Shown: positions 49,828 through 64,000 of the stretch, one piece after another
How positions within the stretch are numbered: the first letter of the stretch is position 1
Layout: each line of letters opens with the position of its first letter
Position numbers and translations under genes: made by a program
The notes under the pieces: generated by a model
The model's database searches: none
Told to the model about the DNA's origin: nothing
What the model saw: only the letters and a program-made list of their open reading frames with translations
Assembly (NCBI GenBank): GCA_002172485.2
Contig: NHFP02000005.1
Coordinates: forward strand, 4,402-68,401
Length of the DNA: 64,000 nucleotides
Direction: 5' to 3'
From: Crocinitomicaceae bacterium TMED114
GTDB lineage: Bacteria; Bacteroidota; Bacteroidia; Flavobacteriales_D; Sanyastnellaceae

Positions 49828-51309
49828 ATGCTTCGATTCACCTTGCCCCTTGTTCTCGTCCTTGCCCAGGCTTCCTGCGGGACCCAGCCCGCTCCGCAGG
49901 AGTCTTCCGTGGCGGTTTCCCCTGCCGCGGCGCCCGTTTCAGATTCGGATTTGACGTTGGCGAAGGTGTATGCCACGGCGGAAAACACGGACAAGCGGCT
50001 GTCGTTTGAGGGCGAGCTCGAATTCGACGCGGCCCGTCAACCGTTGGAAACGGAGGTGGCCATTTTCGTGAATCCCAACAAGAAGTTCCAGACGTTCCTC
50101 GGCATTGGCGGGGCGATCACCGACGCGTCGGCAGAGGTGTTTTCGCAGATGAGCCCGGCCAACCAGGACGCGCTGCTCGAGGCCTACTTCGGCGAGAACG
50201 GCATCGGGTACACCATCATCCGGACGAGCATCCATTCGTGCGATTTCGGCCTCGGGAGCCACACCTACATCGAGGAGGGGGATGCGGAGCTGGCGACGTT
50301 TTCCATCGCGGCGGACACGGTGAAGCGGATTCCGATGATCCAGCGCGCCGCGGAGCTGGTGGGCGAGGACCTCGTCTTCTACGCCAGCCCGTGGAGCCCG
50401 CCGGCGTTCATGAAGACCAACGAAAACATGCTCTACGGCGGTTCGCTGTTGCCCGAATACCGGGACGCGTGGGCGCAGTACTTCGTGAAGTTCATCGAGG
50501 CTTATGAGGCAGAGGGCTTGCCGGTGTGGGGGGTGACCATCCAGAACGAGCCCATGGCGGTGCAGCGTTGGGAGTCGTGCATCTACACGGCCGAGGAGGA
50601 GCGTGATTTCCTGAAATACCACCTCGGGCCGGCGATGGAGGCCGCCGGGTATGGCGACAAGAACATCGTCGTCTGGGACCACAACCGCGACCTCATCACG
50701 CACCGCGCCAACACGATTTTCGAGGATTCCGTCGCCGCGTCCTACGCGTGGGGCACCGGGTTCCATTGGTACGAGACCTGGACCGGCGGCTTGCCGAAAT
50801 ATGACAATCTCAAGCTAATCGAGGAGTCCTTCCCGGACAAGAAGCTGCTGTTCACCGAAGGGTGCCAGGAGGGCTTTGACAGCGCCCACTACGAGCGCTG
50901 GTCCAACGCCGAACGCTACGGCAACAGCATGATCAACGACTTCAACAGCGGCACGGTCGGCTGGACGGATTGGAACATCTTCCTCGACGAGCGGGGCGGT
51001 CCGAATCACGTTGAGAACTTCTGCTTCGCGCCGGTCCACGGCGACACGCAGACGGACGAGCTGATTTTCACGCCGACGTACTACTACATCGGCCACTTTT
51101 CGAAGTTCGTTCGCCAAGGCGCACGCCGAGTCAGCACGGCCGCCAGCCGCAGCACGTTGGAGAGCACGACGTGGGAGAATCCTTCCGGGGAGCGCGTGAC
51201 GGTGGTGATGAACCGGACGGACGAGCCGATGGACTACGCCCTGATCGTGGGCGATCAGCAGGTGAAGGCGAGCATCTTGCCGCACGCCATGCAAACGCTC
51301 GTCTACTGA
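49828..51309 (+). CDS. GH30 glycoside hydrolase (glucosylceramidase/beta-1,6-glucanase family) lipoprotein
   Basis: The 493-residue protein starts LPLVLVLAQASC, a lipoprotein signal with lipid Cys17, so it is probably tethered to the membrane. The GH30 domain runs from about 80 to 430 with a C-terminal beta domain: QTFLGIGGAITDASAEVFSQ at the start, GVTIQNEPMAVQRWESC with acid/base Glu241, and LFTEGCQEGF with nucleophile Glu344. GH30 members act on glucosylceramide, beta-1,6-glucan or xylan; in a beta-glucan setting the beta-1,6 side chains of laminarin are a plausible target. Divergent from the lipoprotein gene. Confidence 0.92.
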   Translation: MLRFTLPLVLVLAQASCGTQPAPQESSVAVSPAAAPVSDSDLTLAKVYATAENTDKRLSFEGELEFDAARQPLETEVAIFVNPNKKFQTFLGIGGAITDASAEVFSQMSPANQDALLEAYFGENGIGYTIIRTSIHSCDFGLGSHTYIEEGDAELATFSIAADTVKRIPMIQRAAELVGEDLVFYASPWSPPAFMKTNENMLYGGSLLPEYRDAWAQYFVKFIEAYEAEGLPVWGVTIQNEPMAVQRWESCIYTAEEERDFLKYHLGPAMEAAGYGDKNIVVWDHNRDLITHRANTIFEDSVAASYAWGTGFHWYETWTGGLPKYDNLKLIEESFPDKKLLFTEGCQEGFDSAHYERWSNAERYGNSMINDFNSGTVGWTDWNIFLDERGGPNHVENFCFAPVHGDTQTDELIFTPTYYYIGHFSKFVRQGARRVSTAASRSTLESTTWENPSGERVTVVMNRTDEPMDYALIVGDQQVKASILPHAMQTLVY

Positions 51310-51330
51310 GCGCGATTCCAAGTTCGGGCG

Positions 51331-51462
51331 TCAGCGGACGATGAGCGGCTTGCGCCAGTCCCATTCGGCGACCTCGACGATGTAGAGGCCGCTCGGCAGG
51401 CCGCTGAGGTCGAGGGTCACGAACTTGGCGCGGAGATTGTATTCAAGGAGGGCAGAAACCCA
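51331..51462 (-). pseudogene. Remnant of a T9SS sorting domain
   Basis: The minus strand is open for 43 codons and reads ...VTLDLSGLPSGLYIVEVAEW then DWRKPLIVR and stop. LxGLPxGxYxVEV...KPLIVR is the closing segment of a type A T9SS C-terminal domain. No start codon, signal peptide or mature domain belongs to it: upstream there is a stop and then the plus-strand gene at 51468. It looks like the tail of a deleted or disrupted secreted-protein gene, left between the GH30 gene and the barrel gene. Confidence 0.7.
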
Positions 51463-51467
51463 TTTTC

Positions 51468-52064
51468 ATGTTCAAGTCACGTTCGATTCTCCTCGCCTTT
51501 CTGTGCGCATTGACCTGGCACGCTTCGGCGCAGAACGGCCCCATCGTCCGGACCAACCTGACTGACCTCGTGGTCGGTCGCTACTCCCTTGGTGCCGAGG
51601 TTCCGGTTCGTCCCCACCTTTCGGTTGGCCTCGATGTCGACTACATCGCCCGCGATGTGTTCGTGGGATCGGGTCATCCGTGGTACCCAGGGGGTGACAC
51701 GAAGAAGCGCGGCATCATCCTCGAGCCGCAGGTGCGCTGGTATCCCGGTGCGGAGGCTGCTCACGGCACGTACACCGCCCTGTCCGGATTCTTCGGGTAT
51801 GCCCGGTACAACCGGTTGGATGAGGCGTCTTGGGGTGTGGGGCCTCCAGAGTGGATGGTCGGGGGCGCCTCCCTGCATGTGGGGCATCAATTGATTCTCG
51901 GCCGGTTCCTGCTCGACGGATACCTCGGGGGAACGTGGACGTCGGAAGACGACATGGGCATCTTCTACGAGGACCTTCCGCTGTTTCCGCAGGCGTCCGG
52001 ACTTCGCGTGTCTGGCGGCCTTCGTTTGGGAATCAGGCCTTGCGACCGAGGCGGCCGGCAATGA
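51468..52064 (+). CDS. DUF3575-like outer-membrane beta-barrel protein
   Basis: The 198-residue protein has a signal peptide (FKSRSILLAFLCALTWHASAQ). Barrel strands include HLSVGLDVDYIARDV, GIILEPQVRWYPG, and LHVGHQLILGRFLLDGYLGG, as in DUF3575 proteins. The end (GIRPCDRGGRQ) lacks the usual terminal aromatic residue and overlaps the convergent flavoprotein gene by 32 bases, so the natural 3' end may have been altered. Function unknown. Confidence 0.75.
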   Translation: MFKSRSILLAFLCALTWHASAQNGPIVRTNLTDLVVGRYSLGAEVPVRPHLSVGLDVDYIARDVFVGSGHPWYPGGDTKKRGIILEPQVRWYPGAEAAHGTYTALSGFFGYARYNRLDEASWGVGPPEWMVGGASLHVGHQLILGRFLLDGYLGGTWTSEDDMGIFYEDLPLFPQASGLRVSGGLRLGIRPCDRGGRQ

Positions 52065-53250
52065 AGCCGGTGGTCCAGGCGGCCTGAAAATTGAAGCCGC
52101 CAGTGATGCCGTCCACATCGAGGATCTCGCCGGCGAAGTGCAGGCCGCGCACGACCCGGCTCTCCATCGTGTGGAAGTCGACCTCGCTGAGGGTCACGCC
52201 TCCGCAGGTCACGAACTCCTCCTTGAAGGTGGTTTTACCAGCGACCGTGTAGGTGTCGTTGAGCAGGCCGTTGATGAGCCGGTTGCGCGGTTTCTTGCCA
52301 AGCTCCGCCCACGGGGTGTCGGGGTCGATGCCAGCCTTCTCCAGTGCGTGGATCCAGAAGTTCTTGGGCAGATCAAAGGGGCAGGCGTTGGCCATCTTCT
52401 TCTTCAGCATGCCCGGGAGGGCCTCCTGCAATTCGGCCAGGACCTCGGCCTCGTTGGTCACGCCGATCCAGTTGACTTGAATGGTGAATCCGTAGTCGCG
52501 CTCGGCCAGTTCGCGGGCGCCCCATGCGGAGAGTTTGAGGACGGCCGGACCGCTCATGCCCCAGTGGGTGATGAGCACCGGCCCCTCGTGGGACAACTTG
52601 GTGCCTTGGATGCGGATGATGGCGTTTTTCACGACCAGCCCCATGCGCTCGGTGATGGTCTCGCCTGGCATGTTGAAGGTAAACAGCGACGGCACCGGGG
52701 CGCTGATGGTGTGGCCGAGGGCGACCAGCCAGTCGAATCCGGTGGCCTTGGGGCTGCCGCCGGTGGCGACGATGACCCGGTCGAACGGTTCGCCGTGGAG
52801 GTCGAACCCGCCGCCGTCCAGCGGTTGGATGGACTGGATGGGGGCCTTCATCCGGATGTCGATGCCGGCCGAGCGTGCCTCGCCGAGCAGGCAATCGATG
52901 ACGGCTTGGGAGGTGTTCGCGACGGGGAACATGCGGCCGTCGTCCTCGGTTTTGAGCGGGACGCCGCGCTCGGTGAACCAGTCGATGGTGTCCTTGGCGC
53001 TGAAGGTGCCGAATGCCTTTTTGAGTTGGCGTCCTCCGCGGGGGTAATGCTTCGGGAAGGCGCTGGGGGAGAAGCAGGCGTGGGTGACATTGCAGCGTCC
53101 GCCGCCGGAGACCTTGACCTTGGACAGGAGCTTGCCGGTCTTTTCGAAGAGGACCACGCTGGTTTCAGGGTGATGATGGGCGGCCGAGAGGGCCGCAAAG
53201 AAGCCCGCCGCTCCGCCTCCGATCACCGCCACCTTGCCGACTGCGTCCAT
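52033..53250 (-). CDS. NAD(P)/FAD-dependent oxidoreductase, BaiN/HI0933 family
   Basis: The 405-residue flavoprotein has the FAD-binding start KVAVIGGGAAGFFAALSAA, then KVKVSGGGRCNVTHACFSP, the diagnostic motif of the HI0933/YhiN/BaiN family, RVIVATGGSPKATGFDWL, and the C-terminal LHFAGEILDVDGITGGFNFQ. Cytoplasmic; the physiological substrate is unknown for most members. ATG 53250 starts exactly at the conserved N-terminus; the open frame reaches further upstream without similarity. Divergent from the GH3 gene. Confidence 0.92.
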   Translation of the reverse strand: MDAVGKVAVIGGGAAGFFAALSAAHHHPETSVVLFEKTGKLLSKVKVSGGGRCNVTHACFSPSAFPKHYPRGGRQLKKAFGTFSAKDTIDWFTERGVPLKTEDDGRMFPVANTSQAVIDCLLGEARSAGIDIRMKAPIQSIQPLDGGGFDLHGEPFDRVIVATGGSPKATGFDWLVALGHTISAPVPSLFTFNMPGETITERMGLVVKNAIIRIQGTKLSHEGPVLITHWGMSGPAVLKLSAWGARELAERDYGFTIQVNWIGVTNEAEVLAELQEALPGMLKKKMANACPFDLPKNFWIHALEKAGIDPDTPWAELGKKPRNRLINGLLNDTYTVAGKTTFKEEFVTCGGVTLSEVDFHTMESRVVRGLHFAGEILDVDGITGGFNFQAAWTTGFIAGRLGRKA

Positions 53251-53315
53251 GCCGGAAAGGTACGGGGTCAGGCTCCTGATTCGTGGAGGAAAGCCTGGGG
53301 GCAAAAGGGGCATCG

Positions 53316-53322
53316 TAACTTG
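53316..53322 (+). promoter_or_regulatory. Promoter-like element before the GH3 gene
   Basis: TAACTTG is followed by five bases (GGGGC) and the ATG at 53328. TAnnTTG form of the -7 element; same geometry as at panB. Confidence 0.4.
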
Positions 53323-53327
53323 GGGGC

Positions 53328-56300
53328 ATGCACCGAAACTGCTCTGCCAACGCAGGCTTCTCGTCCATTGGACAGGGCCTGAACCGACTTGGGTTCCTCT
53401 GCCTGTTGTCCGCCATGGGACTGTGGCTCCGGGCCCAGCCGCACGCTGTCACCTTCCGGGTGCAGATGCCCGATCCGGCCATGGAAGCCGTGGTGGAAGT
53501 GGAGGGGCAGGTCCACGCGATGGAGACGGGTCCGTGGGGGGCTCGAGAAGCGACGGTGCTCGTGGACGGCAGCGTCGACTACCGATTCGGAACGCCGGCA
53601 GGGCCGCTGGGTATGGCTTGGGAATCGGCACCGTCCAGCTGTACGGAGGGCGGAATCCGCCATGCAGACGTGACCGCTGATGCCGCGTTGGCCGTGGTCT
53701 GCTTCAACGACTGTGATCCCTGCGAGGGATGCGCCGACCCGTTTTCGCCCAACTACGCCCCGCTCGCCGCACCCAATTCTCCGGCACACTTCTGCCTCGA
53801 TGCCGGACAGGGGGGCTGCACCTATGTCGCCGCGTCGAATTTCATGGCCGAGGCCCAATGGGACGACGGCTCCTGCGAATTCGCCGGACAGGCATCGGAT
53901 TGTCCGGACCACGATGGTGACGGTCTGGTCGACGTGGGGGACATGCTCATTCTCCTGTCCGCCTTCGGGCAGGCCTGCACCACCGCGTCCGCATCGGATG
54001 AGAATCCATTGGAAATCCTGATTCAGCAGCAGATCGATCAGCTGTCCTGGTCGGAGAAGATTGCCCAGATCCACCGCAACACGTTCTGGACGACGCCGGA
54101 CAACTCGACCCCGCCCATTCCGGGGTTCACCATGTCGGATGGACCGCACGGTGTGCGGTTTGTGCCGTCGACGTCTTTCCCGGTGGGCATCGGCCTCGCA
54201 GCGTCTTGGAACCGTCAGCTCGCCCATGACGTCGGCTACGCGATGGGCACCGAATTCCACGCCTACGGCAAGCACCAGCAGCTCGGTCCGGCCGTGGACC
54301 TGTGCCGTGATCCTCGCAATGGCCGGAGCCCGGAGACGGGTGGGGAGGACCCCTTTCTGACGGCGCACATGAACGTCGAAGTGGTGCGCGGCATCCAGAG
54401 CCAGCCGGTCATCGCTACGGTCAAACACTTCAATGCGGTGAACCAGCAGGTGGACCGGCACAATGTCAACCACATCATGACGCAGCGCCAGCTGATGGAG
54501 CACTACGGCTACAACTTCCGTCGGGTCATCCAGGACGCAGGCGCCTTGTCGGTGATGAACGCCTACAACAAGGTCAACGGAGACAAGGCCGCGGAAAACG
54601 CCGACCTGCTCAACGGCATTTTGAAGGACCGATGGGGCTTCCCGTTTTACGTAGTTTCCGACTGGGGTTCGGTGTGGGACGCCAGCAAGGCGCTCAAGGC
54701 CGGGTGCGATCTCGAAATGGATGTGGACGTATCGGCCTTCGAGGAGCAGCTGACCGCCGATTACGTGAATGGCATCATCAACGATGCCGACCTCGACCGC
54801 GCGGTCCGGCGCGTCCTGCGGGTCAAATACCTGACGGGCATGATGGACAACCTGCCACAGGGCAATCCCATCACAGGGGCCAACACGCCCGAGCACCAGG
54901 CGTTGTGTCTCGATGCCGGCCGAGAGGCCATTGTCCTGCTCAAGAATGAGGCGGACATCCTGCCGTTGAACATGGAACAGACGATCGCCATGGTCGGCCC
55001 GAGTGCCGCGGTCGCCCAGCTGGACGGCTTCGGCTCGAGCTGGGTGGACCCGCCCTACGCCATCACCCCGCTGCAGGGCGTGCTGAACAAGATTTCGTCC
55101 AGCCAGGTAGAGTTCGCGCCAGGCTGCGCCATCAACAGCACGGACACCACGGGTTTTGCGGCCGCCCGCGCTGCAGCAATGGCCTCGGACATCGTGGTCT
55201 TCGTCGGTGGACTCGACCAAACGCAGGAGGGGGAGAACTACTACCCCGGCCCCGTGGACCGCACGAGCGGAAGCGTCGAATTGCCGGGTGTCCAGCAGTT
55301 GCTCATCCAGGAGCTTGCCGAGGTCAACCCCAACGTTGTGGTCGTCCTGAAGAGCGGGGGCATCTGCTCCGCGCCGGAGGCCATCGACGACATGCAGGGC
55401 TTCCTCTACGCGTTTTACCCGGGTATGGAAGGGGGCAACGCGATTGCAGATGTCCTGTTTGGCGACGTCAACCCGAGCGGCAAGCTGCCGGTGACCATGC
55501 CCGTGGACGATGCGCAGATGCCGGAATGGAATTCGGACTTCAGCGACGATTACAACACGGGCTACCGGTACTACGACGAGCTCGACATCACGCCGCAGTT
55601 TCCGTTCGGGTTCGGCCTGAGTTACACGGACTTTGCCATCAGTGCCCTGCAGTTGGACGCCACGACCGTGTCGCAGGGTATGCCCATCACGGCCACGGTG
55701 GAGGTGACCAACACGGGCGATGTGGCCGGGGCGGAAGTGGTCCAATTGTACCTCGACAACCAGGCGGCCCCGGTGTGGATGCCGGAGAAGGAATTGAAGG
55801 GCTTCGAAAAGGTATTCCTCGCTCCGGGGGAGTCCGCCACGGTGTCGTTCTCGCTGGGGGCCAACGAGCTGTTCTATTTCGATGAGGCTCTTGACCGTTA
55901 CGAGGTGGCGGTGGGAGACTACACCCTCTACGCCGGCGCGAGCTCCGACGCCCTCGCAACGTCAGCCTCCTTTTCGGTCACGGCGGGACAGCCAACGCCG
56001 GACTTCGAGGTCACCCGCGTGTACAGCGTACCCCGGTATCCGGTGGAGGGCGACTCGCTCATCCTGTGCGCGCTGGTCAAGAACCCCGGCACCCAAACCG
56101 TCCTCATGGACGAGGCACTGGAGGTGTCGTTCTCGGTGGCGGGGCAGGAGGTCGCGGCCACGCAAACCTTGCTCGATACGTTGAACATCGCGGGGTCGAC
56201 CCTGCTGTGCGCGAGCACAGGCCAGTGGACCGTGACGGGCGAGGACGACATGGAGGTGCTCGCCACGGTGGACCCCGCCGGAGATTGGGCGGAATTGGTC

Positions 56301-56999
56301 GAGGACAACAACACGATCACCCACACCGTGGATGTCCAAGCGGGCTCTGAAGTCGTCCCGAACCTGTGTTACCTCAAGCCCGCTACGGCGACGTCTCAAG
56401 AGGCGGGGGACCTCGGTGCGGACCAAGCGGTCGACGGGGACTTCTCAACCCGTTGGAGTTCCGATTTCTCCGACCCCCAGACCATCACGGTTGACCTGCT
56501 GAACGTCTACACCCTCAATGAGATCGCGCTGGCCTGGGAGACGGCCTACAGCAGCGAATACAAGCTCAAGGTGTCCTTGGACGGTTCGATCTACACGACG
56601 CTGGTGCATGAGACGGACGGGGACGGCGGGTACGACCTGTTCTATCCGGACGTGGATGCGCGCTACATCCAGGTCGAGGGGCTGCAGCGTGCCACGGCGT
56701 GGGGCCACTCCCTGTGGGAGATCCAGGCCTTTGGCCAATTGGTGGTCGGGGTGCCCGAGGCCCCGATGGCCGAGGTGCAGTTGATGCCCAATCCGGCCCA
56801 CGAATCAATCCGCTTCGAAGGGTTGCCGGGCGAAGCCGACATGGAGTTGTTCAGCATGACCGGGCAGCGCCTATGGGCGGGTTCGGTGCGGAACGGTGAC
56901 CCGGTGGCCCTGCCGCGTCTGCGGATGCCGGCGGGCACGTACGTGGTGCGCCTGGAGTCCGGGGACATTCAGTCCTCGTTCAACCTCGTCGTCGACTGA
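53328..56999 (+). CDS. Multidomain GH3 beta-glucosidase with N-terminal dockerin-like module and T9SS tail
   Basis: The 1,223-residue protein has a signal peptide (1-36). Residues 37-217 are a module shared with the GH5 protein at 63037: a beta part (VTFRVQMPDPAMEAVVEVEG), a Cys-rich part with GCADPFSPNY and DDGSCEF, and CPDHDGDGLVDVGDMLILLS then AFGQAC (191-217). GH3 follows (about 228-770): MSDGPHGVRF, IATVKHFNAV, YVVSDWGSVW with nucleophile Asp445, and VLFGDVNPSGKLPVTMP. Then an Fn3-like domain (780-880), a CARDB-like domain (890-1003), a discoidin-like domain (1010-1140) and a type A T9SS tail (1150-1223). Probably a surface or secreted beta-glucosidase acting on glucan oligosaccharides. 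Confidence 0.93.
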   Translation: MHRNCSANAGFSSIGQGLNRLGFLCLLSAMGLWLRAQPHAVTFRVQMPDPAMEAVVEVEGQVHAMETGPWGAREATVLVDGSVDYRFGTPAGPLGMAWESAPSSCTEGGIRHADVTADAALAVVCFNDCDPCEGCADPFSPNYAPLAAPNSPAHFCLDAGQGGCTYVAASNFMAEAQWDDGSCEFAGQASDCPDHDGDGLVDVGDMLILLSAFGQACTTASASDENPLEILIQQQIDQLSWSEKIAQIHRNTFWTTPDNSTPPIPGFTMSDGPHGVRFVPSTSFPVGIGLAASWNRQLAHDVGYAMGTEFHAYGKHQQLGPAVDLCRDPRNGRSPETGGEDPFLTAHMNVEVVRGIQSQPVIATVKHFNAVNQQVDRHNVNHIMTQRQLMEHYGYNFRRVIQDAGALSVMNAYNKVNGDKAAENADLLNGILKDRWGFPFYVVSDWGSVWDASKALKAGCDLEMDVDVSAFEEQLTADYVNGIINDADLDRAVRRVLRVKYLTGMMDNLPQGNPITGANTPEHQALCLDAGREAIVLLKNEADILPLNMEQTIAMVGPSAAVAQLDGFGSSWVDPPYAITPLQGVLNKISSSQVEFAPGCAINSTDTTGFAAARAAAMASDIVVFVGGLDQTQEGENYYPGPVDRTSGSVELPGVQQLLIQELAEVNPNVVVVLKSGGICSAPEAIDDMQGFLYAFYPGMEGGNAIADVLFGDVNPSGKLPVTMPVDDAQMPEWNSDFSDDYNTGYRYYDELDITPQFPFGFGLSYTDFAISALQLDATTVSQGMPITATVEVTNTGDVAGAEVVQLYLDNQAAPVWMPEKELKGFEKVFLAPGESATVSFSLGANELFYFDEALDRYEVAVGDYTLYAGASSDALATSASFSVTAGQPTPDFEVTRVYSVPRYPVEGDSLILCALVKNPGTQTVLMDEALEVSFSVAGQEVAATQTLLDTLNIAGSTLLCASTGQWTVTGEDDMEVLATVDPAGDWAELVEDNNTITHTVDVQAGSEVVPNLCYLKPATATSQEAGDLGADQAVDGDFSTRWSSDFSDPQTITVDLLNVYTLNEIALAWETAYSSEYKLKVSLDGSIYTTLVHETDGDGGYDLFYPDVDARYIQVEGLQRATAWGHSLWEIQAFGQLVVGVPEAPMAEVQLMPNPAHESIRFEGLPGEADMELFSMTGQRLWAGSVRNGDPVALPRLRMPAGTYVVRLESGDIQSSFNLVVD

Positions 57000-58232
57000 T
57001 CAACGGCGCATGGGCTGGGCGGTCCAATAGGTCGCTGTGCGCCACAGCCATTCGAAAGGACCGAAGCGGAAGCGCTTCATCCACCAAGAGGACCATGCGA
57101 TCTGCAGCCCCCAAATGGGCAGGATGACGAGCCACAATTCGGCGCGGCCCATCGTGGCGAACCACCCGAAGCCGTGGCCATACATGACCGTGGTGGCCAG
57201 CATCGTCTGCGTGAGGTAGTTGGTCAGTGCCATCCTGCCCACCGGTGCCAGGCGACGTTCCATCCAGGCGCCCATGCGGCCTTCGCACAGCCAGAGGACG
57301 GCCCCAATGTATCCGAGCACCATCGGCACCATGCCGAGGGTCCGGAACTGGCCGCCTTGGAAGAAGCTGTACTCAACGGTCCAACCGGCGAGCTCGTTTT
57401 GCCAGACGCCGAAGCCGCTGATCAGCGTACCGAGGGCCAGACCGATCAGGGCGAGGCGCCCATTCCACCGGCGGTCCCGCTGCCCGGTGAGCACGCCGGC
57501 CTTGTAGAGCGCCATGCCGAGCAGCATCATGCCCGTGGCGCGGGGGGCGGTGAAGGGCATCAGCTCCGTCTGGAAGGCCAGGGAATTCGGAATGCGTTCG
57601 GACATCTGCTCCCACCACGATCCGCGGAAGGCGGTGACTTCCCGGGCAATGCTCTCGGCGTCGGGGGTCCAGAAGGCGCGGAGTCCGTCGACATCCCTGG
57701 GCGCCCAGTACGGTATGGACAGTCCGAAGAAGACGTTGGTCGCCATCAGCAGCCCGAGGAACGTGCCCGCCGCGATGAGCAGCCCTCGGACGGACCACCC
57801 GCGGAAGAAGAAGAGCCAGAGCGAGCAGACGGCATAGGTCACCAGGATGTCCCCGCTCCAGAGCAAGTAGGCGTGGGCGAGGCCGAACAGCAGCAGCCAA
57901 AGGTTCCGGCGGTAATGCCAGGCGGCTTCGGATTTCCCCTTGCTCCGGACGCGGTCGGTGAACAGCACCACTCCGGCGCCGAAGAGGACCGAGAACAGGC
58001 CCATGAATTTCTCGCTGGCGAAGACCTCGGAGAAGAGGAACGCGATGTGGTCCAGCCCTTCCAGCGGGCCTTCGGCCGTGGGGTTGAGGTAATGGACTCC
58101 GGGCAGGCCAAAGGAGATCATGTTCATGATCAGGATGCCGAGCAGGGCCACACCGCGGAGGACGTCGAGTTGGTGGATGCGCTCAGCTGTGGCGCTCAAA
58201 GACGGCGCTTTCGCGGTGGGAGAAGGGGGCAT
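57000..58232 (-). CDS. DUF418 (YeiB-like) membrane protein
   Basis: The 410-residue protein has about ten membrane helices. It starts RIHQLDVLRGVALLGILIMN, the R-x-x-x-LDxLRG-x-A-x-x-GIL signature of DUF418, and ends with ALTNYLTQTMLATTVMYGHG and PFEWLWRTATYW, the conserved C-terminal region. These proteins are related to acyltransferase-3 membrane enzymes; function is not settled. ATG 58232 was chosen; the frame is open upstream. Its stop is immediately next to the GH3 stop (convergent), and it is divergent from the TonB receptor. Confidence 0.92.
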   Translation of the reverse strand: MPPSPTAKAPSLSATAERIHQLDVLRGVALLGILIMNMISFGLPGVHYLNPTAEGPLEGLDHIAFLFSEVFASEKFMGLFSVLFGAGVVLFTDRVRSKGKSEAAWHYRRNLWLLLFGLAHAYLLWSGDILVTYAVCSLWLFFFRGWSVRGLLIAAGTFLGLLMATNVFFGLSIPYWAPRDVDGLRAFWTPDAESIAREVTAFRGSWWEQMSERIPNSLAFQTELMPFTAPRATGMMLLGMALYKAGVLTGQRDRRWNGRLALIGLALGTLISGFGVWQNELAGWTVEYSFFQGGQFRTLGMVPMVLGYIGAVLWLCEGRMGAWMERRLAPVGRMALTNYLTQTMLATTVMYGHGFGWFATMGRAELWLVILPIWGLQIAWSSWWMKRFRFGPFEWLWRTATYWTAQPMRR

Positions 58233-58337
58233 ACACGTTCGACTCAACAAGTTTAGGCATTCAGGTTGGCGAATCCAATGCCCGGTATCACAACCGTTAA
58301 AGTGGTGCGGAGGTCGTCCGGGAGAAGGGAGGCGGGC

Positions 58338-58345
58338 TAGCTTTG
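58338..58345 (+). promoter_or_regulatory. TAnnTTTG promoter element before the TonB-dependent receptor
   Basis: TAGCTTTG, an exact consensus match, is followed by five bases (GCGTC) and the ATG at 58351. Predicted transcript is leaderless or nearly so. Confidence 0.55.
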
Positions 58346-58350
58346 GCGTC

Positions 58351-60726
58351 ATGCTCTGGCGATGTTCGGTGTTGGTCTGCTTGCTCGTTCACACGATGTT
58401 CCTCCAGGCCCAATCGGTTCAGCTCAACGGCTACGTTCAGGATGCGGCCAGTGGTGAAATGCTGCCCGGGGCCACCCTGTGGTGCGCTGCGGAGGCCGTC
58501 GGGGCAGGGACCAATGCCTTTGGGTTTTATTCCCTCGCCCTGCCGCCGGGCAAGCAGACGCTGACCGTATCGTACATCGGATACACCGCCCAGACACTGG
58601 AGGTGGATCTGACCACCGATACCCGACTCGACGTCTCCCTCCAGTCCGGCGTGGCCCTGCAGGAGGCGGTGGTGCGCAGTGATGGGGAGCGCATCGAGGA
58701 CGCGGTCCAGATGTCGCGGGTCGAAATTCCGATGGAGCAGGTGCGCAAGCTGCCGGCCATCGGCGGGGAAGTGGACTTGCTCAAGACGCTCCAGCTCATG
58801 CCCGGTGTGCAGTCCGGTGGGGAAGGCACCTCCGGTTTGTACGTCCGGGGTGGCAGTCCCGACCAGAACTTGATTGTGCTTGATGGAGTGCCGCTGTACA
58901 GCGTGAGCCACCTGTTCGGTTTCTTCTCGGTGTTCAATGCGGATGCGGTCAAGAAGATGTCGATCACCAAGGGCGGCTTCCCGGCCCGGTTTGGTGGGCG
59001 CCTCTCCTCCGTGGTGGAGGTGCAGATGAAGGACGGCAACCTGCGCGAAACCCACGGTACGGTCAACGTCTCCCTGCTGGCTTCCAAGCTCATGATCGAG
59101 GGGCCCATTGTCAAGGACAAGGCGTCCTTCATGATCAGTGGGCGTCGCACCTACCTCGACCTCCTGACCCGCCCCATCATCAACGCCGCCAACAAGCAGG
59201 ACCCCAGCATCCAGACCAAGCCGCGGTATTTCTTCCACGACCTCAACGGCAAGCTCAATTGGCGCATCGGCGAGCGGGACCGGGTGTACCTCAGCTTGTT
59301 TGACGGCACGGACGACTTCGGATTCGAGTCCACTGAGAACCTCGGAGCCAGCAACTCGTTCATCGACTTCGGTCTCGATTGGCGCAACCGGGTGGCCGCC
59401 TTGCGTTGGAACCACGAGTGGGGACCGAAGTTGTTTTCCAACGTTACCCTCACCCGGAGCCAATACGAGTTCAACACGGGCGTGGAGTTCCGCGAGTCGT
59501 TTGAGGCCATCGGCGACACCAACACCTCCCGGCTGGCGAGCCTCTACCAGAGCGGCATCGTAGACCTCGGGGCGCGGATGGATTTCCTCTACGCGCTCAA
59601 CAACCGCCACAGCCTGCGCTTTGGGGCCAACGTTACGCTGCACACCTTCAACCCTGGGGCCACCACCTTTCAGGCGGAGTTCGAGGGCAACCTCAGCGCC
59701 ATCGATACGACCATCGGGTCGGAGGAGGTGGGGTCTGACGAGCATTTCCTCTTCATCGAGGACGAGATGCGGTTGCACCCCAATCTCAAGGCCAACGTGG
59801 GATTGCATGCGGCTTTGCTCCGCGTCAACGGAACGGACTTCGCCTCGCTACAGCCGCGGGCCTCCTTGAATTACCGCCTGCCCGACGGCAGCGCCATCAA
59901 GGCGTCCTATGCGCGGATGAACCAGTTCGTCCACCTCTTGACCAACGAAGGATTGGCGCTTCCGACCGACCTCTGGGTCCCGGCCACCGACCGGGTCACG
60001 CCGCAGACCAGCCAGCAGTGGGCCCTCGGTTGGGCCAAAACGTACGGGGGCGTCGAGTGCAGCATCGAGGCCTACCACAAGGCCATGACGGGCCTGCTCA
60101 GCTACCGGGAGGGGGCCAGTTTTGCCAACACATTCAACGCGTCGTGGGAAGACCAAGTGACGCAAGGGGTGGGGGATGCCTACGGGTTTGAATTTCTCCT
60201 CCAGAAGAAGCAGGGCCAGACCACGGGTTGGCTGGGATACACGCTCAGCTGGGCCACCCGTCAATTCGACGAGATCAACAGCGGCAACCCGTTTCCGTAT
60301 ACCTATGACCGCCGCCACGACGCCTCGGTGGTTGTGATGCACACGTTCTCGGACCGGGTGGACCTGTCGGCCACGTGGGTCTACGGAACCGGACGGGCCC
60401 TGACCCTGCCCGAATCGGTGTTCCGGACCTTTGCACCGGTCGATTTCACGGGCACCAACCCCGAGCTCAACGGCACCACGGTCGAGGTTCCGGGCGAGAA
60501 GAACAGCTACCGCCAAAGCCCGTATCACCGGGCGGATGTGGCACTCACGATTCGAAAGCAGAAGCAACGCTACCTGCGCTCCACCATCATCAGCGTCTAC
60601 AACGTCTACAACAACATGAACCCATTCTTTTCCTTGGTGGAACAGAACGTGGATGGCTCTAGGGTCATTCGCGAGTACGGCATTTTCCCCATCATTCCCT
60701 CCATCGCATGGCGCATCGAATTCTGA
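58351..60726 (+). CDS. TonB-dependent receptor with carboxypeptidase-regulatory-like N-terminal domain
   Basis: Outer-membrane active transporter of 791 residues. After the signal peptide (WRCSVLVCLLVHTMFLQAQ) comes a CarboxypepD-regulatory-like domain (about 22-105, VQDAASGEMLPGATLWC and YIGYTAQTLEVDL), then the plug domain (about 130-240, GTSGLYVRGGSPDQNLIVLD and GVPLYSVSHLFGFFSVFN), then the barrel. It is shorter than typical SusC (about 1,000) and has no SusD neighbour; the next gene is a DUF4249 lipoprotein overlapping by 19 bases. Receptors of this DUF4249-linked type are common in Bacteroidota, with unknown ligands. The surrounding glycosidases suggest an oligosaccharide, but this is inference. 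Confidence 0.92.
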   Translation: MLWRCSVLVCLLVHTMFLQAQSVQLNGYVQDAASGEMLPGATLWCAAEAVGAGTNAFGFYSLALPPGKQTLTVSYIGYTAQTLEVDLTTDTRLDVSLQSGVALQEAVVRSDGERIEDAVQMSRVEIPMEQVRKLPAIGGEVDLLKTLQLMPGVQSGGEGTSGLYVRGGSPDQNLIVLDGVPLYSVSHLFGFFSVFNADAVKKMSITKGGFPARFGGRLSSVVEVQMKDGNLRETHGTVNVSLLASKLMIEGPIVKDKASFMISGRRTYLDLLTRPIINAANKQDPSIQTKPRYFFHDLNGKLNWRIGERDRVYLSLFDGTDDFGFESTENLGASNSFIDFGLDWRNRVAALRWNHEWGPKLFSNVTLTRSQYEFNTGVEFRESFEAIGDTNTSRLASLYQSGIVDLGARMDFLYALNNRHSLRFGANVTLHTFNPGATTFQAEFEGNLSAIDTTIGSEEVGSDEHFLFIEDEMRLHPNLKANVGLHAALLRVNGTDFASLQPRASLNYRLPDGSAIKASYARMNQFVHLLTNEGLALPTDLWVPATDRVTPQTSQQWALGWAKTYGGVECSIEAYHKAMTGLLSYREGASFANTFNASWEDQVTQGVGDAYGFEFLLQKKQGQTTGWLGYTLSWATRQFDEINSGNPFPYTYDRRHDASVVVMHTFSDRVDLSATWVYGTGRALTLPESVFRTFAPVDFTGTNPELNGTTVEVPGEKNSYRQSPYHRADVALTIRKQKQRYLRSTIISVYNVYNNMNPFFSLVEQNVDGSRVIREYGIFPIIPSIAWRIEF

Positions 60727-61679
60727 ACGTGTTCCGTCCCATTGGCCTCGGCTGTGCGGTGCTGGTCTCCCTGGTCGGGTGTGAGAAGCTGTCCGAAGGA
60801 GTGGTCCGGGAAATCCAGTTCCCTGAGCACACGCCGGAGCTGGCGGTGACCTTCCTCGCCCGGCCGCAAGCGGACTCCCTGGTGGCCCGAACCCATGCTT
60901 CAGCAGGGATTCTCGATTCCACTGGAAGCCAGAAGATCAAGGAAGCCGAGTACACGCTGACCCACATGTCCGGCACCACAGTGTCCTGGGGCGGACAGGA
61001 CGATTGGGTGCAGCACCGGGGCCACGCCCTGATTGATGTGGACCTGGAGTTGGGAACGTGGACCCTCACGGTGGAGGCGCCAGGCTACGAGACGGCCACC
61101 GCCGTTCAAACCTTTCCGCCGGTCATCGATTCTGTGGGCAGCTATGCATACGCTGCAGAGTGGTTTGTGGTGGATTCGACCTTCTCGTGGGACCCCTACT
61201 GGAACTATGGATTCCGGTCGTTTGAATTCAACTTGACCCTGCCGGACCGGGTGGGTGTCGATGACTTCTTTTTGCTGCGGTCGGCCCAGAGGGATTTCGA
61301 CGATGAGGAGTCCTGGGAATCGGGCCAGGTCATCTGGTTGGAATCGCTCATTGAAGACGATCCCCGGATGGAGTGGAACGAATCGCTCAACGGTTTTCTT
61401 ATCCAGGATGTGCCGGGGGCGCAGGCCTTGGAATCCTTGCCGTTCGAAGTGCAGCAGGAGATTTGGGGAGAGGACCTGGAGGAAGCCCTGGAGTCAGCCC
61501 CACGCCTGGAGCTGGTGGCCTTGTCGCCGGAGATGGTACTCTTTTACCGCCGGCTGGATGAGATCCGCAATGGCGAGGGCGGCTTGTTCTTTTCAGAACC
61601 GATTTTGGCCTACAGCAATGTGAGCAGCGGGTACGGCTGTTTCGGGCTGTATACCTCCACGGCGATCGACTTGGATTGA
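60708..61679 (+). CDS. DUF4249 family lipoprotein
   Basis: The 323-residue protein has a lipoprotein signal (about 11-25, LGCAVLVSLVGC). The N-terminal Ig-like part (PELAVTFLARPQADSLVART, KIKEAEYTLTHMSGTTVSW) and the middle SFEFNLTLPDRVGVDDFFLL follow the DUF4249 pattern. These lipoproteins regularly accompany TonB-dependent receptors and may act as surface partners in place of SusD. The start overlaps the receptor gene by 19 bases, so the two are co-transcribed. Confidence 0.85.
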   Translation: MAHRILNVFRPIGLGCAVLVSLVGCEKLSEGVVREIQFPEHTPELAVTFLARPQADSLVARTHASAGILDSTGSQKIKEAEYTLTHMSGTTVSWGGQDDWVQHRGHALIDVDLELGTWTLTVEAPGYETATAVQTFPPVIDSVGSYAYAAEWFVVDSTFSWDPYWNYGFRSFEFNLTLPDRVGVDDFFLLRSAQRDFDDEESWESGQVIWLESLIEDDPRMEWNESLNGFLIQDVPGAQALESLPFEVQQEIWGEDLEEALESAPRLELVALSPEMVLFYRRLDEIRNGEGGLFFSEPILAYSNVSSGYGCFGLYTSTAIDLD

Positions 61680-61698
61680 GGACCGCGTCCCCTGGGGC

Positions 61699-62895
61699 TC
61701 ATTGGAACACGCGGACATAGTCCACGGCCATGAACTGCGGGAACGCGGTGGTGGCGTCGGGGTAGCCGGGCCACTGTCCGCCCACCGCGATGTTCAGGAT
61801 GAAGAAGAAGGGGTTGTCGAAGGGGTAGGGTTGGCTTCCGGTCACGGCGTTGTCGACCGAGTAGAAAGGCTGGTCGTCGAGCAGCCAGGTGATGCCGCTC
61901 GGGGTCCAATCGATGGAGAAGACGTGGAACTCGTCGGAGAAGGTCTCGGTCCACGGAATGCTCGTGCCACCACCGGTGTAGTTGTGTTGGGTCCAATCCG
62001 CTCCATAGTGGACGGTGCCGTGGACGGTGTTCGGTGAGCTGCCGATGAGCTCCATGATGTCCATCTCGCCGCAGGCGGGCCACCCGGAGGTGGGGAAGTT
62101 GGCGCCGAGCATCCATATGGCCGGCCAGATGCCCTGTCCCTTAGGCAGAATGGCGCGGACGTCGATGCGCCCGTATTGGAATTCCTGGAGCCCGATGGAT
62201 TTCATGCGGGCAGAGGTGTAGTGGGTGCCTTCATCGCGGGCGACGATGAACAGGTGCCCGTCGTCGACGTAGGAGTTCTCGCTGTTGCTGGTGTAATTCT
62301 GCAATTCCTGATTGCCCCACCCGTTGGCCCCGAGGTCGTAGGTCCAGTTGGACAGGTCGATGGAGCCGGCGTCGAACTCGTCCGACCAGACCAGCGTCTT
62401 GCCCGGGTAGCTTGAGGCGGACATGTAGCCACCGCCAGAGATGGGGAAGAGGGAGTCGTCGTTGCGGATGGTGCTAATGGCTTCCTGGATGCCCCCGGCG
62501 AAGGTGGCGTTGGACGACCCCGTGAGGACCACGCGGAACTCCTCGTCCTCCTCCATGTAGTCGTCCACCACGATGTCCACGAAAATGGAGGCGGTTGCGG
62601 TGCCGGCCGGAATCACCAAGGAATCGGCCACCGGGATGTAGTCCTCGCCTTCGAGTGCGGTGAGTTCCCGTGTCTCGTAGTGTACCATGATGTCCCGACT
62701 GGTGCTCTGGTTGAGCACAATGGGGAATTCGAAGGTGCTGTTGGCTTCGGTTTCATCCTTGCTGATGTCGATGGGGAATCGGATTTCCGGCACCACGTGA
62801 GGGTCTTCCTCCGGGCGACATTGGGTGGACAAGATGACCAGGGCACTCATGAACAGGAGCGTGGGCATCGGCTTGAGAACAGGCAGGCAAGGCAT
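61699..62895 (-). CDS. GH16 endo-beta-glucanase (laminarinase-like) lipoprotein with Calx-beta domain
   Basis: The 398-residue protein has a lipoprotein signal (TLLFMSALVILSTQC, lipid Cys26). Residues 35-147 form a Calx-beta-like domain (EGEDYIPVADSLVIPAGTAT, EEDEEFRVVLTG). Residues 160-398 are GH16: LVWSDEFDAGSIDLSNWTYD, GRIDVRAILPKGQGIWPAIW, and ACGEMDIMELIG with the ExDxxE catalytic motif (Glu277 nucleophile, Glu282 acid/base), then HVFSIDWTPSGITWLLD. This is the bacterial beta-1,3(4)-glucanase subgroup, typical for laminarin. ATG 62895 was chosen because of the lipobox. Confidence 0.93.
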   Translation of the reverse strand: MPCLPVLKPMPTLLFMSALVILSTQCRPEEDPHVVPEIRFPIDISKDETEANSTFEFPIVLNQSTSRDIMVHYETRELTALEGEDYIPVADSLVIPAGTATASIFVDIVVDDYMEEDEEFRVVLTGSSNATFAGGIQEAISTIRNDDSLFPISGGGYMSASSYPGKTLVWSDEFDAGSIDLSNWTYDLGANGWGNQELQNYTSNSENSYVDDGHLFIVARDEGTHYTSARMKSIGLQEFQYGRIDVRAILPKGQGIWPAIWMLGANFPTSGWPACGEMDIMELIGSSPNTVHGTVHYGADWTQHNYTGGGTSIPWTETFSDEFHVFSIDWTPSGITWLLDDQPFYSVDNAVTGSQPYPFDNPFFFILNIAVGGQWPGYPDATTAFPQFMAVDYVRVFQ

Positions 62896-63023
62896 GGCGT
62901 GAAAATACGCGACCTGAAGCGGCTTTGAGGGCGCTCTCCGCGCCCCATCCCCCTTGATGCGCGGTCCGAACTGACCACCGCGTTTCACCGGACGCTTCAC
63001 GACCGCTGAGCCGAGGGATGGTG

Positions 63024-63030
63024 TATTTTG
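63024..63030 (+). promoter_or_regulatory. Promoter-like element before the GH5-type gene
   Basis: TATTTTG (TAnnTTG form) is followed by six bases (CACACC) and the ATG at 63037. Confidence 0.4.
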
Positions 63031-63036
63031 CACACC

Positions 63037-64000
63037 ATGTGCCATAATGAACTGCGTGGGGTCCGTGCTGGACTCCTGTTTCTCGCCTTGCTTGCCGGCT
63101 GGATTCCTGTTGAAGCCCATCTGGTGACGTTCCGGGTTCTCATGCCCGATCCGGCGATGGAGGCCGTGGTGGAAGTCAACGGCGAGGTCCACGCCATGGA
63201 CAACGGCCGTTGGGGCGCCAAGGTCGCCACGGTCTGGGTCGAGGAGGCCACAGCCGAGTTCCGGTTTGGGACCCCTGCGGGACCGCAGGGCACGGCATGG
63301 GAGAATGCGGCCAGCGACTGCTTTGACAACGGCCTGCGCACGACAGAGGTGGAGGGCAATACCGCGCTGGATGCAGTCTGCTTTGATGCTTGCGCCCGGT
63401 GCGCAGGGTGCGCCGATCCGCTGTCTCCGAACTACAACCCGCTGGCCGATCCAGCCTCGCCGTCCGCCTTGTGTGCGGTGGCCCCCGGCGCCGGCTGCAC
63501 CTACCCGGAAGCGGTGAACTTCAGCTCAGTTGCACGTTGGGAAGATGGGAGCTGCACCTTTGAATTGGCCGATCTGAGTTGCCCGGACCACGATGGAGAC
63601 GGCCTGATCGGGGTGGGGGACATGTTGGTCCAATTGGCCGCCTTTGGTCAGGCGTGCTCACCACCGCCGCCGCCCTTTGCCAACGGCCCGCGCCTGTCCA
63701 CCAGCGGTGGCAGCATCGTCAACGAGAGCGGTGAAAACGTCCTGCTCCGCGGCATGGGCCTCGGCGGATGGATGGTCCAGGAGGGCTACATGCTCCAGAC
63801 GGCCGGTTTTGCCAATCCCCAGCACGAGATCCGCGCCATCATCACTCAGCTCATCGGCGAGGAGGCCACGCAGGACTTTTACGACGCCTGGTTGCAGAAC
63901 CATTGCACCAAGGCCGACATCGATGCGATGAAGGAGATGGGCTTCAATTCGGTTCGCTTGCCCATGCACTACAACCTGTTCACCCTGCCCATCGAGGAGG
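63037..64000 (+). CDS. Secreted GH5-like glycosidase with N-terminal dockerin-like module, cut by window end
   Basis: The readable part is 321 residues, with a signal peptide (about 1-27, VRAGLLFLALLAGWIPVEA). Residues 28-207 are the module shared with the GH3 protein: VTFRVLMPDPAMEAVVEVNG, then GCADPLSPNYNPLA with GCTYPEAVNF and EDGSCTF, then SCPDHDGDGLIGVGDMLVQL and AAFGQAC. A Pro-rich linker (SPPPPPF) leads to the catalytic domain, which starts VLLRGMGLGGWMVQEGYML, the GH5 opening, and later has MKEMGFNSVRLPMHYNLF with the conserved Arg. The acid/base and nucleophile Glu lie beyond the window, so the GH5 subfamily is open. Confidence 0.85.
   Translation, partial: MCHNELRGVRAGLLFLALLAGWIPVEAHLVTFRVLMPDPAMEAVVEVNGEVHAMDNGRWGAKVATVWVEEATAEFRFGTPAGPQGTAWENAASDCFDNGLRTTEVEGNTALDAVCFDACARCAGCADPLSPNYNPLADPASPSALCAVAPGAGCTYPEAVNFSSVARWEDGSCTFELADLSCPDHDGDGLIGVGDMLVQLAAFGQACSPPPPPFANGPRLSTSGGSIVNESGENVLLRGMGLGGWMVQEGYMLQTAGFANPQHEIRAIITQLIGEEATQDFYDAWLQNHCTKADIDAMKEMGFNSVRLPMHYNLFTLPIEE

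Follow-up and report, generated by a model that had tools for sequence, protein, structure and literature searches.

A C-Terminal Repeat and EF-Hand Composite at the N-Terminus of Two Glycoside Hydrolases in a Flavobacteriales Family

Here we analyzed a stretch of 64,000 nucleotides (hereafter the window) from contig NHFP02000005.1 of Crocinitomicaceae bacterium TMED114. The GH3 and GH5 proteins encoded in it share an N-terminal module. In one Flavobacteriales family, the repeat and EF-hand tail of this module is normally found at the very C-terminal end of secreted proteins. The best explanation, to which we assign a probability of about 45%, is that an old copy of a C-terminal composite was relocated to the N-terminus, where it would act as a docking or anchoring module stabilized by calcium and disulfides. 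In the composite, a domain of the CBM20/48 fold is followed by a pair of disulfide-rich repeats and by one dockerin-like EF-hand predicted to bind calcium. The composite is not a named family; of its parts, the CBM20/48 fold and the half of a GC-type dockerin were already known. An earlier reading, made from the window alone, had missed a third copy of the module on a GH16 enzyme, the T9SS domains that end the GH3 and GH5 proteins, and the home position of the module, which is at the very C-terminal end, where a T9SS sorting domain would otherwise stand.

Anatomy and Age of the Shared Module

The GH5 module (residues 28-207, positions 63118-63657) and the GH3 module (residues 37-217, positions 53436-53978) aligned over 183 columns with one gap (E = 3e-77). 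This alignment bears out the coordinates and motifs given for the shared stretch in the original prediction, as well as its claim that one N-terminal module is common to two proteins with unrelated catalytic domains (Table 1). Between the two copies and the stop codon lie 900 and 1006 aa, and both proteins have a C-terminal T9SS sorting domain of type A (TIGR04183). The surrounding cluster (49828-64000 of the window) comprises GH30, GH3, a TonB-type receptor, a putative lipoprotein, GH16 with Calx-beta and GH5, and it looks like a utilisation locus for a putative beta-glucan (laminarin-type) substrate.

Table 1. Positions of the features of the GH3 and GH5 proteins in the window.
Feature	Position	Strand	Basis or remark
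GH3 N-terminal signal peptide region	53328..53435	+	Hydrophobic stretch, end ..LRAQPH
GH3 module part 1, divergent CBM20/48-fold beta-sandwich	53436..53726	+	Alignment to GH5 module
GH3 module part 2, two Cys-rich Asx-type repeats	53727..53876	+	Alignment
GH3 module part 3, single EF-hand dockerin-like repeat CPDHDGDGLVDVGDMLILLSAFGQAC	53901..53978	+	Alignment, EF loop
GH3 catalytic domains, Fn3-like, CARDB, F5/8 type C	54090..56999	+	Pfam and NCBIfam
GH3 T9SS type A sorting domain	56787-56993	+	TIGR04183 (NCBIfam)
GH5 alternative start, TTG	63028	+	ORF list; residues counted from ATG at 63037
GH5 signal peptide MCHNELRGVRAGLLFLALLAGWIPVEA	63037..63117	+	Hydrophobic stretch, cleavage-like end right before module
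GH5 module part 1, divergent CBM20/48-fold beta-sandwich	63118..63405	+	AlphaFold, PDB fold match, profile match
GH5 module part 2, two Cys-rich Asx-type repeats	63406..63555	+	GCADP..NY..LAD..C and GCTYPEAVNF..A..EDGSC
GH5 module part 3, single EF-hand dockerin-like repeat CPDHDGDGLIGVGDMLVQLAAFGQAC	63580..63657	+	12-residue loop 63586-63621
GH5 linker and start of catalytic domain	63658..64000	+	Gene continues beyond window, ends G000:C4:70758
GH5 protein, downstream domains			PF00150 (GH5), PF03422 (CBM6), TIGR04183 at C-terminus

The two copies had been described as nearly identical, which is too strong for a protein identity of 59% (roughly 60%) over about 180 aa. High DNA similarity and a recent shuffling had also been proposed, and neither stood: 63% of the module DNA was identical, with 42% at codon position 3, and the proportion of identical codons among identical residues (0.49) equalled the 0.49 predicted from codon usage alone. 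Because codon identity is no higher than codon usage predicts, the duplication of the module is old, its synonymous sites having been randomised, and selection has preserved the protein sequence since then. A recent duplication is ruled out by this synonymous-site saturation.

A Starch-Binding-Type Fold in the First Part

AlphaFold modelled residues 1-90 of part 1 with a pLDDT of 84-96. The best PDB match of this model was the CBM20 of STBD1 (Z 9.7, 86 residues, rmsd 2.3); AMPK beta1 was matched at Z 8.0-8.1, and residues 1-93 matched CBM20, CBM41 and AMPK chains at Z 8-9.7. In addition, a profile of part 1 matched canonical CBM copies of the same bacterial family with a probability of 96.4. 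Part 1 therefore shares with the CBM20/CBM48/AMPK glycogen-binding domain both the fold and, through these canonical copies, a remote sequence homology. It differs from that domain in its extra cysteines, in the lack of a Pfam match (no family at E up to 10 for the window copies), and in the deletion of the G(S/D)F(Q/N)GW segment of the canonical copies, which was missing from every module copy on the GH3 and GH5 proteins and on the GH16 proteins of the genus. In AMPK, this loop carries a glycogen-binding Trp. Part 1 is a divergent starch-binding-type (CBM20/48 fold) sandwich without the usual glucan-binding loop.

The third full copy in the window's own genome lies at the C-terminus of a 730-aa GH16 glucanase ending ...CPDNNGDGLIGVGDVLILLSAFGNFCD and is 53-58% identical to the window copies, so that the three full copies of this genome sit on GH3, GH5 and GH16 enzymes. 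In the 730-aa protein, three sandwich domains follow one another, the third being part 1 of the module, and two stretches of the protein match AMPK1_CBM and CBM48 in Pfam, the protein scoring above the cut-off with the best match in the first domain. Since these two stretches lie in the same protein, since part 1 has the CBM20/48 fold and since all three full copies are on glycoside hydrolases, the module could instead be a substrate-binding appendage, in which a CBM20/48-type module and a linker bring the GH3, GH5 and GH16 enzymes to glucan. However, the missing Pfam match and the lost G(S/D)F(Q/N)GW segment of the window copies speak against such binding, and the repeat and EF-hand also end proteins with no obvious glycan role (ASST, choice-of-anchor I and FG-GAP). 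We regard this explanation as rather unlikely.

Cysteine-Rich Repeats in the Second Part

Part 2 shows the pattern GC..D/Y..N-Y/F..A..D/N-G-S-C twice, and ten cysteines were invariant in an alignment of 30 modules. The repeats matched no named model in Pfam, and a literature search for the DDGSC motif returned no paper whose title or abstract dealt with the repeat. The Asx repeat did align with a disulfide-rich segment of MPEG1 (perforin-2; PDB 6u2j residues 329-355, i-Evalue 4e-4), which closely resembles the bacterial repeat but occurs as a single copy in an animal pore-forming protein, and the alignment covers only 27 residues.

For parts 2 and 3, the pLDDT was mostly <50 within the full module and averaged 48.6 when they were modelled alone; with confidence this low, we make no claim on their fold and used that model for no fold search. 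Structure prediction, which had been suggested for the whole module, was thus informative for part 1, which matches the CBM20/48 fold, and gave too low a pLDDT for the other two. Likewise, the possibility that the module is an already named family applies to part 1 (CBM20/48 fold) and to part 3 (half of a GC-type dockerin), but not to the middle repeats, which have no Pfam name, nor to the composite. Elsewhere on the contig, beyond the window, a 4472-aa open frame (L147, G000:C4, ~158800-171600) contains tens of tandem Cys-rich Asx repeats and ends in a degenerate EF-like tail, ...CWDFDFSGSVGIQDLLDLLLLFNLECGAE.

The Composite at the C-Terminus Across the Family

When 150 relatives were searched with the module, 77 were matched, and every one of these belongs to the same family. 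In the proteins fetched from these relatives, the composite of a CBM-like domain, two Cys-rich repeats and the EF-hand nearly always made up the last 180-190 residues, and the EF part lay mostly 0-2 residues from the stop, the exceptions being the GH3 and GH5 proteins of the genus. The window's own genome (10 contigs totalling 1.73 Mb, with a completeness of 67.6%) was surveyed over the stretches around search matches, where 24 proteins had an EF tail 0-9 aa from the stop and only the GH3 and GH5 proteins carried the EF part N-terminally; the N-terminal position is indeed unusual, as had been supposed. A Sec-type hydrophobic leader was seen in most of the N-termini read from tailed proteins and was unclear in a few. 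The bodies of these proteins are unrelated (GH81, GH16, arylsulfotransferase (ASST), choice-of-anchor I, G8/CEMIP, FG-GAP and Kazal), the tailed GH16 and GH81 enzymes lying outside the window cluster.

Among 249 genomes of the order, a profile of the repeat and EF parts (E 1e-10) matched 84 that belong to the window's family and a single further one; among 296 drawn from the phylum, it matched none outside the family. Tails were almost absent from the genera g4 and g20. The original prediction had looked to a profile search for many matches on diverse secreted enzymes within one clade, and many matches on diverse secreted proteins of one clade were found. A restriction of the module to the GH3/GH5 pair is contradicted by the third copy in GH16 and by the many proteins of the family with the tail. 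A locus search with a 12-row alignment returned 11 named loci, with Flavobacteriales bacterium Bacter3, UBA1995, UBA4474 and Crocinitomicaceae bacterium SP3009 as close records. Additionally, the same tail-protein C-terminus appeared on two contigs with identical search scores (L141, G000:C1:153000-157477; L142, G000:C2:21000-28500), and the likely cause is either that the assembly duplicated the end of a contig or that the gene was copied recently.

A Tail in Place of the T9SS Sorting Domain

TIGR04183 gave 40 matches in the own genome at E 0.01, 31 of which were over the cut-off, and among the proteins compared the EF-tail set and the TIGR04183 set shared only GH3 and GH5. When the ends of choice-of-anchor I proteins were classed by eye, 10 of 17 inside the family carried the EF tail at their end and the other 7 a T9SS-type domain, whereas 21 of 22 readable ends outside the family were T9SS-type, the remaining frame (G122) stopping early within the body. 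The seven T9SS-type ends in the family belonged to one species of the same genus and to three tail-poor genera. The Fisher test (p 4e-5) is descriptive only, the rows being related by descent. All five T9SS-type ends that were scanned passed the TIGR04183 cut-off; among five scanned tails, four matched only the dockerin model, the fifth matched nothing, and none matched TIGR04183. Furthermore, a diverged GH5 copy in a member of the genus (L298, G011:C119:6500-9200) ended in the repeat and EF tail and not in a T9SS-type domain, which was the type of end seen wherever the end of another GH5 orthologue could be read. On orthologous bodies, the tail thus stands where the T9SS sorting domain would be, a swap documented in numbers for one body family (choice-of-anchor I) and also for one GH5 paralogue.

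Given this slot, the tail in its home position most likely sorts proteins or tethers them at the cell surface. About two dozen secreted proteins per genome in the family, without a recognised T9SS domain, end in the tail instead, which makes the tail a concrete candidate for the means by which these proteins are sorted or retained. The C-terminal signals known for T9SS are of types A, B and C (PMC10202324). The tail resembles them in taking the same C-terminal slot on orthologues, most with Sec-type leaders, and differs from them in being a short EF-hand sequence, with a putative export role suggested by position only. It is possible, although somewhat doubtful, that the Cys-rich repeats and half-dockerin form a further, family-restricted sorting or anchoring signal of the Bacteroidota C-terminus, interchangeable with T9SS domains; the GH3/GH5 module would then be a natural N-terminal relocation that separates anchoring from sorting.

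The position of the tail also bears on the idea that the module is a rigid spacer or stability cap, built on disulfides and calcium and with no specific partner. Such a role would agree with the invariant cysteines, with the conserved residues of the calcium loop and with the very long arrays that Asx repeats form in giant proteins. Yet a pure spacer needs no place 0-2 residues from the stop in nearly all proteins, and it has no reason to replace the T9SS domain on orthologues, and we consider it unlikely.

Origin of the N-Terminal Copies

In GH5 orthologues from eight other members of the genus and from other genera, the signal peptide ran straight into RLSTEG..IVNE.GE.VLLRGMGLGG at the catalytic domain, while the window genome and one sister genome had the 180-aa module and a proline linker between the two. 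By this comparison, the GH5 module is a late, clean insertion behind the signal peptide, in a protein line with a T9SS domain. In the tree, the GH5 modules grouped with the GH3 modules that come from these two genomes (support 94/89), and the N-terminal modules formed one clade with the GH16 modules of the genus (100/100). Neither a single N-terminal clade (p 0.46) nor a GH3 clade without GH5 (p 0.40) was rejected. A grouping of the family's GH16 modules into a single clade was rejected (p 0.008), so the history of the GH16 copies across genera is not simple. The distribution, C-terminal across the family and N-terminal only in the genus, points to a relocation from the C- to the N-terminus; the direction from GH16 to GH3 rests on this distribution and not on the tree, and GH3 orthologues were compared within the genus.

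We propose that a copy of the composite was placed behind the GH3 signal peptide in the genus and, in the lineage of the window genome, behind the GH5 signal peptide too. The T9SS domain at the other end of these proteins would do the sorting, and the module would be left as a docking element braced by calcium and disulfides, which may hold GH3 and GH5 to the same partner as the C-terminally tailed GH16 and possibly GH81. An adaptor or anchor role, as first suggested, is the best reading of the module. The GH3 and GH5 proteins are a natural experiment, with the same module at the other end alongside a normal T9SS domain. One point against the relocation of a sorting or tethering tail comes from the N-terminal copies themselves, in which the module is present but does not serve as a signal at the terminus.

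The EF-Hand and Its Relation to Dockerins

In the family's sequences, positions 1, 3, 5 and 12 of the EF loop were conserved as D, N/D, D and D, and the ligands were retained even in the N-terminal copies; part 3 is predicted to bind calcium. Its best PDB match was a dockerin. The GH3, GH5 and GH16 copies have one EF repeat, compared with two in dockerin type I (PF00404). In relatives, part 3 matched half of the GC-type dockerin model of NCBIfam (NF041540), which the window copies did not match. Against the full model, whose curated cut-off is 29 bits, two-repeat tails of the own genome scored 34.7 and 31.0 bits and others 17-25 bits. A literature search for the GC-type dockerin found no paper naming the domain. 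The tails are like NF041540 in their C-terminal calcium-loop repeats with flanking cysteines; the window copies are unlike it in having one repeat, with Cys-rich Asx repeats replacing the first, and in their N-terminal position.

The matches of the EF part to PDB dockerins, and those of two-repeat relatives to the GC-type model, would accord with a classical dockerin-cohesin assembly, in which the enzymes plug into a cellulosome-like cohesin scaffold. However, the window copies have a single EF repeat where dockerins have two. In addition, no cohesin was detected in the own genome (67.6% complete) and none exceeded the Pfam cut-off in 17 genomes of the genus, a search that divergent cohesins may escape, and tail-rich genomes such as G021, G027 and G046 had no cohesin either. 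Because the genus has no cohesin over the cut-off, a classical cellulosome is unlikely here, and we give the scaffold assembly very little credence. For freshwater Planctomycetes, a cohesin/dockerin complex called the "planctosome" was proposed (PMC6461901), whose dockerin modules would keep extracellular hydrolases at the surface outside cellulosomes, much as a docking or anchoring module would do here; unlike the present case, the planctosome model needs cohesins, which the genus lacks at the Pfam cut-off. Cohesin-like domains were scattered in the order (G091:C61, G111, G122, G045, G025, G031, G024 and G093) and did not track the number of tails. Among the tails of the own genome, several had two EF repeats joined by FGC..C and others one EF after Asx repeats, so that one terminal tag occurs in two forms within the genome.
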